From the NCBI GenBank assembly GCA_913056455.1, contig CAJXMJ010000001.1:124001-188000 (forward strand): DNA of 64,000 bases, in the 5' to 3' direction. Under the pieces are notes generated by a model. It did not search any database. It worked only from the letters and a program-made list of their open reading frames with translations, and was not told the DNA's origin. Position 1 is the stretch's first letter. Each line of letters starts with the position of its first letter. Positions 420 to 3,617 of this stretch are shown here, piece by piece. Source of the DNA: an uncultured Fodinibius sp. GTDB lineage: Bacteria; Bacteroidota; Rhodothermia; Balneolales; Balneolaceae. The position numbers and the translations under genes are program-made.

Positions 420-1715
420 TTAGGTGTTTTGATTAATGTCTCTCAAACGTATAGTAACGGCATTTTTATGGGCTTCCAGTTTCTCCAATCCCGCAAGCTT
501 TTCAATAGTAGGTCCCACATTTTGCAAACCATCCGATGAAATTTGCTGCATAGTAATTTGTTTTAAAAAAGAATCAACAGAAACCCCGCTGAACATTCGT
601 GCATAACCGTAAGTGGGGAGCGTGTGGTTTGTTCCCGACGCGTAATCCCCGGCACTTTCGGGTGTCCATTTCCCCAGAAATACTGAGCCCGCATTTATGA
701 TTTGATCTTCATACTGTTCGGGGTTTTTACACTGTACTATAAGGTGTTCAGGGGCATACTGATTTGAAAATGCAAGTCCTTCCTCCAAGGTATCGACTGT
801 GAGAATAAAACTTTTGTCTATAGCTTTTTGGGCAACTTGTTGACGCGGGAGCTCTCCAAGCTGTTTATTAATTTCGTTTTGGCACCTACTCAAATCAAAG
901 CCCGGAGTAGCGACTAACACCACCTGGCTATCTTCTCCGTGCTCAGCCTGTGACAATAGATCGGCTGCAACATAAGCAGGGTTGGCAGTCTCGTCAGCAA
1001 TGACGAGCACTTCTGATGGTCCCGCCGGCATATCAATAGCAATTTGGGCCTCACTATTTTGCAGCATCATTTTGGCCGCCGTTACATATTGGTTTCCGGG
1101 TCCCAGAATTTTATCCACTTTTGGGACTGTTTTTGTCCCCAACGCCATACCGGCTATCGCTTGTGCGCCGCCTGCTTTCAACAGATGTGTTGCACTAATT
1201 TTTTTTGCGATATACAGAATCTCATCGGCAACAGAACCCTCACTGTCTGGAGGCGTTGCCACCACTATTGTTGAGCATCCGGCCAGCATAGCGGGGATAC
1301 CAAGCATCATGAGAGTAGAGGGGAGAATGGCGGTGCCGCCGGGTACATATAATCCCACTCGTTCAATGGGACGTGTTACGCGTTTGCACTGCACGCCCGG
1401 CATTGTTTCCACTTTGAGTGGTTGTGGAAGTTGGGCTTTGTGAAACTGGTAAATATTATCAAAAGCTGTATCAATCGCTTCTTTGATATCCTCATCAACA
1501 GTGACCTCTGTATCCGCGGGATTCATTACGAGCGGATCTGGGGTGACCCCATCGAACTGCTTCGTAAAGTGATTGATGCCAGCATTGCCTTCCTCTTTCA
1601 CTTTTTTGATAATCGGTTCAACCTGACCGAAGATAGAGCGGAAGTCCATCTTCGGTCGTTGGACAAGCTCTTTGAGCTGACTATCTGATAGGTTTTTAAA
1701 GCTGTAGGTTTTCAT
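420..1715 (-). CDS. hisD: Histidinol dehydrogenase
   Basis: NAD-dependent, zinc-containing enzyme that oxidises L-histidinol to L-histidine in two steps, the end of the pathway. At 431 residues it has the usual family length. Visible motifs are RVGLYVPGGTAILPST (about 118-134), LSQAEHG with the zinc-ligand Gln/His pair (about 255-261), YAPEHL with the catalytic Glu/His (about 320-326) and the C-terminal SGTNHTLPT. The ATG at 1715 lies 2 bp from the hisG stop, so translational coupling with hisG is likely. The gene order G-D-C is typical for Bacteroidota-like his operons. Confidence 0.97.
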   Translation of the reverse strand: MKTYSFKNLSDSQLKELVQRPKMDFRSIFGQVEPIIKKVKEEGNAGINHFTKQFDGVTPDPLVMNPADTEVTVDEDIKEAIDTAFDNIYQFHKAQLPQPLKVETMPGVQCKRVTRPIERVGLYVPGGTAILPSTLMMLGIPAMLAGCSTIVVATPPDSEGSVADEILYIAKKISATHLLKAGGAQAIAGMALGTKTVPKVDKILGPGNQYVTAAKMMLQNSEAQIAIDMPAGPSEVLVIADETANPAYVAADLLSQAEHGEDSQVVLVATPGFDLSRCQNEINKQLGELPRQQVAQKAIDKSFILTVDTLEEGLAFSNQYAPEHLIVQCKNPEQYEDQIINAGSVFLGKWTPESAGDYASGTNHTLPTYGYARMFSGVSVDSFLKQITMQQISSDGLQNVGPTIEKLAGLEKLEAHKNAVTIRLRDINQNT

Positions 1716-1717
1716 AT

Positions 1718-2599
1718 CTATAATATCATACTTTCTATGGGAAGTATTACAATTCCGCTGGCACCTTCGGCTTTTAATTTCTCCATTACAACCCAGAATT
1801 CATCAATGGGAATGACCGTATGAACAGCAACCATGCCGTTATCAGCAAGGGGCATCACGGTGGGACTTTTGAGCGATGGAATGATTTCCTTGATTTTGGG
1901 AACAGCTTCTTCCGGAGCATTCATCATAATATATCGACTGCGTTCGGCCTGCTGGTGACCATCCATTCGCTGCAGGAATTTTTCGATGAGCTGCTGTTTC
2001 CCGGGCGATAGCTCTTTATTGGTGCGGATCAGTTGGGTTTCGGATTCTAATATCGTCTCCAGTTCCTCAAGTCCATTGGCTTTGAGCGTATTTCCGGTTG
2101 AAACCAAGTCGCAAATGGCATCGGCTACTTCAAGACGGGGAGCAATTTCTACGGCCCCAGAGATAGTTACAATTTCGGCATTGATATCACGCTCTTCGAA
2201 AAAATTCTTTGTCAAATTCGGGTAGCTTGTTGCTATCGACTTGCCCTCAAAGTCCGCAATAGATTGTATATCACCATCTTTTCGAGCAGCTAGTGAAAGG
2301 CGACATATTCCATAATCAAGTCCGCGAAGAACGGTGACGTCGGCTCCTTTTTCCTGCGTCTCATTTGCGCCAACGAATCCGAGGTCACAGACGCCATCCT
2401 GTACATATTCGGGGATATCGTCATCGCGTATTAAAAGAAGTTCAACGTCGAAATTACGACACTTGACGAGAAGGTTTCGTTTATAATCATCAAATCGGAG
2501 GCCGATGCCTTTAAGCAGATCAATGGTTTTGTCGGTCAATCGACCTGATTTCTGAATGGCAATACGTAGAGAAGTTGTAGAGTCAGCAGTGCGTTGCAT
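1718..2599 (-). CDS. hisG: ATP phosphoribosyltransferase, long form
   Basis: First and committed enzyme of histidine biosynthesis: condenses ATP with PRPP to phosphoribosyl-ATP. At 293 residues it is the long form. The two-lobe catalytic part is followed, from about residue 215, by a C-terminal ACT-like regulatory domain that binds histidine in this family, so no HisZ partner is expected. Motifs: GRLTDKTIDLLKGIGL near the start, DGVCDLGFVGANE, ATSYPNLTKNFF and DAICDLVSTGNTLKANGL in the PRPP-binding region. It is the first structural gene after the His-rich leader at 2694-2750, so both feedback inhibition and transcript-level control are plausible. Confidence 0.97.
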   Translation of the reverse strand: MQRTADSTTSLRIAIQKSGRLTDKTIDLLKGIGLRFDDYKRNLLVKCRNFDVELLLIRDDDIPEYVQDGVCDLGFVGANETQEKGADVTVLRGLDYGICRLSLAARKDGDIQSIADFEGKSIATSYPNLTKNFFEERDINAEIVTISGAVEIAPRLEVADAICDLVSTGNTLKANGLEELETILESETQLIRTNKELSPGKQQLIEKFLQRMDGHQQAERSRYIMMNAPEEAVPKIKEIIPSLKSPTVMPLADNGMVAVHTVIPIDEFWVVMEKLKAEGASGIVILPIESMIL

Positions 2600-2693
2600 A
2601 ACAATTGGTTCTTGAATTTTTTTGGGAAACTGTTTAAAAAAAGTGGGAAAGACGATGTAGCTTCAGCTACACAAAGTGATGCTATAGACGGTG
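2600..2693 (-). promoter_or_regulatory. Putative his attenuator region between leader peptide and hisG
   Basis: On the minus strand, downstream of the leader stop, three pairings can be drawn. The first is GGCGGT-TAGC-ACCGTC, overlapping the leader stop. The second pairs AGC..CAC with GTG..GCT around a TTT loop. The third is a perfect TGTAGC-TGAA-GCTACA stem. The second and third share TGTAGC and are mutually exclusive, as in antiterminator/terminator switches. A T7 run follows the third stem, but 13 nt later, so it is not a textbook intrinsic terminator. The layout is seen; the function is inferred. Confidence 0.5.
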
Positions 2694-2750
2694 CTAACCG
2701 CCGTGATGGAGGTGAGAATGGAAAGAGTTATATAGGCTTTGTTTTTGCAT
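2694..2750 (-). CDS. Histidine-rich leader peptide of the his operon (18 aa)
   Basis: ATG at 2750 opens an 18-codon frame, MQKQSLYNSFHSHLHHGG, ending at TAG 2694-2696. Four of the last eight residues are histidine (H-S-H-L-H-H). It sits 94 bp before hisG on the same strand and is followed by alternative hairpins. This is the arrangement of classical amino-acid attenuator leaders, where ribosome stalling at His codons under histidine shortage favours the antiterminator. Unlike the enterobacterial leader, the His codons are interrupted by Ser and Leu. The frame and context are seen; attenuation is inferred. Confidence 0.72.
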   Translation of the reverse strand: MQKQSLYNSFHSHLHHGG

Positions 2751-2755
2751 CAGGC

Positions 2756-2763
2756 CAAAGATA
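2756..2763 (-). promoter_or_regulatory. -7 promoter box TATCTTTG for the his leader/operon
   Basis: TATCTTTG on the minus strand matches the Bacteroidota housekeeping -7 consensus TAnnTTTG and lies 5 nt before the leader ATG. An ATTG, a possible -33 element, sits 22 nt upstream. With the usual geometry the transcript would begin at or next to the leader start codon, giving an almost leaderless mRNA. Confidence 0.5.
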
Positions 2764-2868: not shown

Positions 2869-2900
2869 AGAAAAAAGGCCCTTGCCGGCGGGCAAGAGCC
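2869..2900 (-). terminator. Strong intrinsic terminator (minus strand)
   Basis: Hairpin with arms GGCCCTTGCC and GGGCAAGAGCC around a short loop. On the minus strand the stem is followed at once by six T residues. It would end a transcript coming from the right, where the only candidate gene is the small frame at 3059-3148. It also insulates the his promoter from upstream transcription. Confidence 0.75.
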
Positions 2901-2914
2901 TTTGACTGTCCGTT

Positions 2915-3058: not shown

Positions 3059-3148
3059 TTATGCTGAGATGGCAACAACGAATACAATGAGCATTAACGT
3101 AAACAGTGTAAGCTGAATGACGGGGTTGTGAACAATTCGTTTATGCAT
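3059..3148 (-). CDS. Possible 29-residue single-pass membrane peptide
   Basis: ATG at 3148 to TAA at 3059. The first 12 residues include three basic residues (M-H-K-R-I-V-H-N-P...) and are followed by an unbroken hydrophobic stretch of about 16 (LTLFTLMLIVFVVAIS), as in a one-helix inner-membrane peptide. It is the only credible frame in the 740 bp between hisG and the gene at 3342, and a strong terminator lies about 160 nt downstream on the same strand. I see no clear Shine-Dalgarno or -7 box. Product and function unknown; it could also be chance coding within a small RNA. Confidence 0.4.
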   Translation of the reverse strand: MHKRIVHNPVIQLTLFTLMLIVFVVAISA

Positions 3149-3341: not shown

Positions 3342-3617
3342 ATGATTACAACTGCCCAGTTTACCTATATTCCACTCAAAGCTTCTGATCCGCGAGAAAG
3401 TATTGATTATTTGCTTGAGCTGGTAGCCCAGCATGATGTAGAGGTAGATGTAAATTATATGTCAACAAGTGTGCGCGGAGAAACGGAGGTTGTTTTTGAA
3501 CTTATTCGGGAAATGTACGATACAATGACGATAGAAAAAGAGGAGTTTCGATTTCATGTTGAACTGCTGAGCCCTGAGTCGGAAGAAGAGGATCCGCTCG
3601 ATATCCCGAAGGCGTAA
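3342..3617 (+). CDS. Small thiamine-binding (YkoF/MTH1187-like) family protein
   Basis: A 91-residue cytoplasmic protein with the pattern of the YkoF/MTH1187 ferredoxin-like family. It has an N-terminal strand (TTAQFTYIPL), a helix (ESIDYLLELVAQH), then VDVNYMSTSVRGETEVVFELIREMYD, matching that family's ST.V.GE..EVF stretch. Relatives bind thiamine or its pyrimidine moiety, but no thiamine genes are nearby. The tail is acidic (SPESEEEDPLD). Transcribed alone, with a terminator directly after it. The family call rests on motif resemblance only. Confidence 0.5.
   Translation: MITTAQFTYIPLKASDPRESIDYLLELVAQHDVEVDVNYMSTSVRGETEVVFELIREMYDTMTIEKEEFRFHVELLSPESEEEDPLDIPKA

Follow-up and report, generated by a model that had tools for sequence, protein, structure and literature searches.

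The his operon of the uncultured Fodinibius sp. analysed here is preceded by what may well be a leaderless attenuator, in which the His codons of a short leader peptide sense histidine and the intrinsic terminator has been replaced, most likely by Rho-dependent termination. We give this reading as a whole a probability of roughly 0.55. Leader-peptide attenuation is a textbook switch, and the locus was described in a sequence-only reading as having the layout of such an attenuator. Relatives lend strong support to the sensing half of that layout, namely a His-rich peptide with a leaderless start that controls hisG. The output half, alternative stems and a terminator, was not supported.

The features of the locus are given in Table 1; positions refer to the window, the stretch of 64,000 nucleotides that was analysed. 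The spacer between the promoter box TATCTTTG and the ATG of the leader is GCCTG, the 5 nt described earlier, and the 18-codon frame with four His among its last eight residues was correct in position and frame. Hairpin A adjoins the last His codons, and in the window's species the stop codon lies within its loop. The terminator upstream of the his promoter, judged by its sequence, closes off transcription coming from before that promoter; because it is present, ordinary hairpin-plus-U-run terminators are apparently in use nearby. Further upstream of the promoter lies a small hydrophobic frame of 29 amino acids, MHKRIVHNPVIQLTLFTLMLIVFVVAISA (3059–3148, minus strand), with a similar C-terminus in the related locus L003. 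It may encode a small membrane protein, with a transcript ending at the same terminator. A 91-amino-acid frame (3342–3617, plus strand) is divergent from the his operon and matched no NCBIfam family.

Table 1. Features of the his leader region in the window and of the trp leader of the same genome
Feature	Position	Strand	Basis
hisD, second gene of the operon, after hisG	420–1715	-	NCBIfam TIGR00069
hisG, ATP phosphoribosyltransferase, long form, the controlled gene	1718–2599	-	NCBIfam TIGR00070 and TIGR03455, over cut-off
Leader stop to hisG start, C-over-G tract, candidate Rho-utilisation region	2600–2693	-	composition; scan with the Rho-utilisation (rut) rule
Hairpin B, TGTAGC/GCTACA, without adjacent U-run	2656–2671	-	fold and 12-sequence alignment
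Hairpin A, GGCGGT/ACCGTC	2687–2702	-	fold and 12-sequence alignment
hisL leader peptide MQKQSLYNSFHSHLHHGG, ATG to TAG, 18 codons	2694–2750	-	sequence; His-rich frame conserved in relatives
Promoter -7 box TATCTTTG, Bacteroidota TAnnTTTG type	2756–2763	-	sequence; TANNTT core in relatives
Intrinsic terminator upstream of the his promoter	2871–2903	-	sequence scan
trp leader peptide MKKSAHKNTNWWWPVKQHTQAVAFL, before trpE (L267:844)	L267:641–718		box TATCTTCA 7 nt before ATG; strong intrinsic terminator after

The Balneolaceae considered here are salt-loving bacteria; among named genomes, those of Aliifodinibius/Fodinibius are nearest to the one analysed. We gathered 146 hisG upstream loci from whole genomes. 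The scored set comprised the Balneolaceae loci L001–L073, with a hisG at least about 71% identical to that of the window; L013 and L023 were left out because their contigs stop too soon (n = 71). All 71 loci carry a His-rich leader peptide of 18–29 codons with 4–12 His (mean 8.3), the start codon being GTG in 48 and ATG in 23, and codon 7 is His in 63. The alignment of relatives proposed with the sequence-only reading thus bears out its conserved His codons; relatives without a His-rich frame, named there as evidence against it, do not occur in the scored set and leaders are missing mainly in family f3. We regard sensing of histidine through the His codons of the leader as almost certain. In a scan of 864 kb of the same genome, the his leader ranked first of 21 leaderless short-ORF candidates and was the only His-rich one. 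The window's leader is itself among the weaker copies, with 4 His and a C/G ratio of 1.92 in the tract that follows it. Its codon 7 (2730–2732, minus strand) is Tyr (TAT) as opposed to the widely conserved His, and its stop TAG (2694–2696, minus strand) stands against TGG in sibling sequences, which read GGT TGG and on to a later TAG; the window's own leader thus seems to be shortened relative to its siblings. Divergent members of the family were kept outside the count: in genus g5 (L074–L079) the leader frames are longer or shifted, and L120 (genus g15) has a leader with a terminator. In the other families of the order the leader is kept in many genomes and is absent from most of family f3, whose hisG stands behind a plain promoter. 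Four f3 loci (L091, L096, L104 and L106) have no His-rich frame and show a TTATCTT-type box about 50–60 nt upstream of hisG; there the leader seems to have been lost.

A TANNTT core lies 3–7 nt before the leader start in 71/71 loci, at 4–5 nt in 63 by automatic tally; in the four loci for which the scan chose a box farther away, one at 4–5 nt is also visible in the sequence. Such a box at 4–5 nt precedes only 1.8% of intergenic RTG codons. As the choice of start had partly used the box score, the test was rerun without the start codon: within 110 nt searched, the best box ends 22–23 nt before the first His in 44/71. In 46/71 an upstream stop closes the frame, and no alternative start lies in between. 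In Flavobacterium johnsoniae, probable promoters have a box-to-TSS distance of 4–5 nt (PMC6847099). Because the box-to-start spacing matches the box-to-TSS spacing of Bacteroidota promoters, transcription is predicted to begin at the first base of the leader (2750) or the adjoining base. A leaderless mRNA, raised earlier as something that may be the case, is supported by the spacing in all 71 relatives and is very probable. Leaderless mRNAs are rare in Bacteroidota, 3.7–5.5% (PMC7366714, PMC9723704). A general habit of leaderless genes was not seen in this genome, the box of its other genes lying mainly 20–60 nt from the start.

The trp leader of the same genome served as a control. It carries Trp codons (WWW), parallel to the His codons of the his leader, and a box lies 2–9 nt (mostly 7 nt) from the trp leader start in 27/30 trpE loci of relatives. 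With a box at 7 nt, a 5' UTR of 2–3 nt is expected; the trp leader is therefore predicted to be leaderless or nearly so. A strong intrinsic terminator with a U-run (-12 to -24 kcal/mol) follows the leader in 27/27 cases. The same scan found no strong intrinsic terminator between leader and hisG in any of the 71 scored Balneolaceae loci; the best his candidate reaches -10.6 kcal/mol and 39/71 show nothing at all. The Balneolaceae his leaders thus very likely lack an intrinsic terminator. The missing T-run beside the terminator stem first proposed, TGTAGC/GCTACA, was confirmed, none abutting TGTAGCTGAAGCTACA (2656–2671). Rfam attenuator models, including the his leader, the T-box and other riboswitches, gave no match at the gathering score or in a lenient scan. 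Acetolactate synthase (TIGR00118) and leuA (TIGR00973) gave no match over the family cut-offs in this genome; branched-chain amino acid synthesis is possibly lacking, or its ilvB and leuA genes are divergent.

Both hairpins are predicted in 12 congeners, A next to the His codons and B downstream of the stop. Compensatory changes, proposed earlier as a check of the stems, occur within the genus at one pair of A and two pairs of B. In the 12-congener alignment, almost no shuffle reaches the observed number of paired cells or the observed covariation score (1/500 in each case). Pairs altered on both sides were no more numerous than in shuffles, and the covariation was graded as moderate only for this reason; there is moderate support for A and B as conserved structures. 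In other genera the position of hairpin A is kept with a changed sequence. A stop-spanning hairpin is enriched there (mean -2.7 kcal/mol versus -0.6 kcal/mol shuffled; 52% at p ≤ 0.1), and synonymous shuffling somewhat weakens hairpin A (34% at p ≤ 0.1). RNAalifold gave almost no consensus on larger clades since the hairpins shift position, and per-sequence tests were used. The overall stability of the window's leader is at the level of shuffled sequences (z = -0.20). Contrary to the two mutually exclusive stems sharing TGTAGC that had been proposed, A and B are neighbours and fold together, and masking the bases under a stalled ribosome abolishes A but not B. Masked folding found no mutually exclusive pairing and none is conserved among the congeners, so such stems are not supported.

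These results bear directly on a classical his attenuator, in which hairpin B would be a weak or atypical intrinsic terminator and stalling at the His codons would favour an antiterminator. Such an attenuator is in line with the arrangement of two hairpins downstream of a His frame, with the compensatory changes in B and with the occurrence in some genera of CUUUUUU directly after the stop-spanning hairpin (as in L016). It is nevertheless unlikely given the contrast between his and trp in the terminator scan and the lack of any switch between A and B; in the window, stem B is directly followed by UCGUCUUUCCCAC.

The interval between the leader stop and hisG (74 nt on average in the 71 loci) has an unusual composition. 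Its mean base fractions are A 0.247, C 0.262, G 0.065 and T 0.427, and C exceeds G in 71/71; the tract also has little structure. In 375 other upstream regions of the genome the means are C 0.166 and G 0.157, and 0/375 are as extreme in both. Only this interval is depleted of G: the fraction is 0.15 in the promoter, 0.19 at the start of hisG and 0.21 in trp leaders. We scanned with a Rho-utilisation (rut) rule (six C spaced 11–13 nt, C/G >1 in 78 nt), reportedly that of the published RhoTermPredict approach. It picks out 76% of the Balneolaceae his leaders (24% fail), 4% of trp leaders, 12% of upstream regions, 20% of coding pieces and 0/13 his leaders of the terminator type. With the threshold raised to a C/G above 2, the rule picks out 63% of his leaders, 0% of trp leaders, 4% of upstream regions and 2% of coding pieces. 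Among the congeners 3/12 fail the rule, the window's own ratio being 1.92. The genome has a rho gene (TIGR00767, 593.5 bits). A second rho-like match (L303, G000:C2:474490–475698) falls short of the curated cut-off at 422 bits and is reported to contain two TAA codons in frame. From this pattern, Rho-dependent termination is slightly favoured as the output step.

The depletion of G could instead keep the start region of hisG unfolded. This leads to translational attenuation, where the ribosome on the leader would govern access to the hisG start, as with the leaderless polycysteine short ORFs of mycobacteria. Leaderless ORFs with control codons are known (Canestrari 2020, as cited in PMC9031893), and low G content ahead of hisG could aid ribosome binding, the phylum having no Shine-Dalgarno sites; the other upstream regions of the genome, however, are not built in this way. 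The predicted accessibility of hisG -15 to +6 is 0.62 in the free RNA and 0.62 with a stalled ribosome, and there is no sequestering stem. Sequestration of the hisG start was rejected on this ground, and we consider translational attenuation improbable. The leader might also only feed ribosomes to hisG by reinitiation, or its peptide might act in trans, with histidine unsensed. Leader genes may raise expression by reinitiation (PMC4833913) and leader peptides can act in trans (PMC7298713). Against both, it is the His codons and not the peptide sequence that are conserved, and the trp leader has Trp codons. Reinitiation was rejected because the leader stop is too distant from hisG, 74 nt on average versus a peak near 10 nt; together these variants are very unlikely. 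A chance His-rich frame without function, which the short window copy with only 4 His might suggest (P = 0.0003 for His content alone), is contradicted by the His codons, the spacing of the start and the positions of the hairpins, all of which are conserved in many genera, and is hardly credible.

On composition and comparative grounds, Rho-dependent attenuation leads, its main rivals being the atypical terminator and translational control. Comparison of sequences gives a conserved frame with His codons, the distance from box to start, the lack of any strong intrinsic terminator, the rut-like composition and a rho gene; from these we infer the start of transcription, the pausing and the action of Rho, especially how pausing would block Rho. 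The mRNA would begin at the start codon of the leader, and a ribosome would load on the 5' AUG or GUG once it has emerged and translate the short His-rich peptide. With ample charged His-tRNA, the ribosome would finish and leave, exposing the G-poor, C/U-rich tract; Rho would then load on the tract and terminate transcription ahead of hisG or in its early part. Under a shortage of His-tRNA, the ribosome would pause at the His codons and block hairpin A; the paused ribosome or an altered fold would keep Rho off and hisG would be transcribed. The weakest link is the step from stall to output. The folds do not explain it, as the masks leave hairpin B and the accessibility of the hisG start as before. 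A stall upstream of the rut region would on its own favour Rho, so the paused ribosome must protect by means outside these folds, for instance by remaining coupled to the polymerase or with the help of a masking fold over the tract. A fold of the latter kind has been described for mgtL (PMC5021804).

Of 14 his leaders sampled outside the class, 13 have a terminator (-9 to -21 kcal/mol); the box-to-start distance is 12–35 nt in 11 of the 14 and 7 nt in two, and no distance was assigned in one. Within the class, leaders of family f10 have a terminator, with the start 3–4 nt from the box in two cases. In the Balneolales families f2–f5, most starts lie 3–6 nt from the box and a strong terminator is generally absent, L083 and L097 being among the exceptions. 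The terminator-type his leader is probably the ancestral form in the phylum. Judging by how these forms are spread among the families, Balneolales may have lost the terminator after the leader had turned leaderless. We put at a little under even odds the fuller account that Balneolales rebuilt the terminator-type his attenuator of the phylum with a leaderless leader and a Rho-utilisation tract in place of the terminator, the trp leader keeping its terminator. If true, leaderless initiation would provide fast ribosome loading for attenuation without Shine-Dalgarno sites. That the his and trp leaders are predicted to be leaderless or nearly so throughout the family suggests how ribosome loading is timed where such sites are lacking. 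The two operons would use one type of sensor with different endings, so that intrinsic and probably Rho-dependent attenuation can be compared in one cell, and in the his leader evolution appears to have exchanged the regulatory output and kept the sensor.

Attenuators in Bacteroidetes are said to be mentioned in a 2004 survey by Vitreschak and colleagues. In the open-access literature searched, we found only a passing mention of leader-peptide attenuation in Bacteroidota (PMC9723704), which hints at a terminator-type his leader in F. psychrophilum; a paper on the his genes of this superphylum (PMC8305728) nowhere uses the word 'leader'. Terminator-type his leaders of Bacteroidota share with the Balneolaceae leader the phylum, the promoter type and a His-rich peptide before hisG, and differ in the terminator (13/14), usually in having a 5' UTR (box-to-start 12–35 nt in 11/14) and in composition (0/13 rut-like). 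The his leader of E. coli and Salmonella likewise has a short His-rich peptide before hisG, a hairpin by the His codons and, presumably, sensing of charged His-tRNA. It has a run of seven His, whereas here the His codons are spread and the start is predicted to be leaderless, with no intrinsic terminator, antiterminator or Rfam match found. The mycobacterial polycysteine ORFs, as far as they are described in PMC9031893 (citing Canestrari 2020), are also leaderless, carry control codons for the amino acid of their operon and lack a terminator. By that account they differ in using Cys codons and in belonging to the Actinobacteria, where leaderless mRNAs are common, and they regulate translation of the downstream gene, of which the accessibility test gave no sign here. 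A pyrimidine-rich tract has been noted in mycobacterial cys leaders, as a weak Rho prediction (PMC1262725). In tnaC and mgtL (PMC5021804), as proposed here, translation of a leader peptide decides the loading of Rho before the structural gene, on a C-rich, G-poor tract. tnaC differs in that free Trp causes a stall at its stop codon and a catabolic operon is induced, and mgtL in using Pro codons; neither is leaderless or belongs to a his operon. The attenuator RNA of Sinorhizobium meliloti trpL (PMC7298713) starts, like the RNA predicted here, at the ATG of the leader peptide; it is an alphaproteobacterial Trp attenuator and is closer to the trp than to the his leaders of the Balneolaceae.
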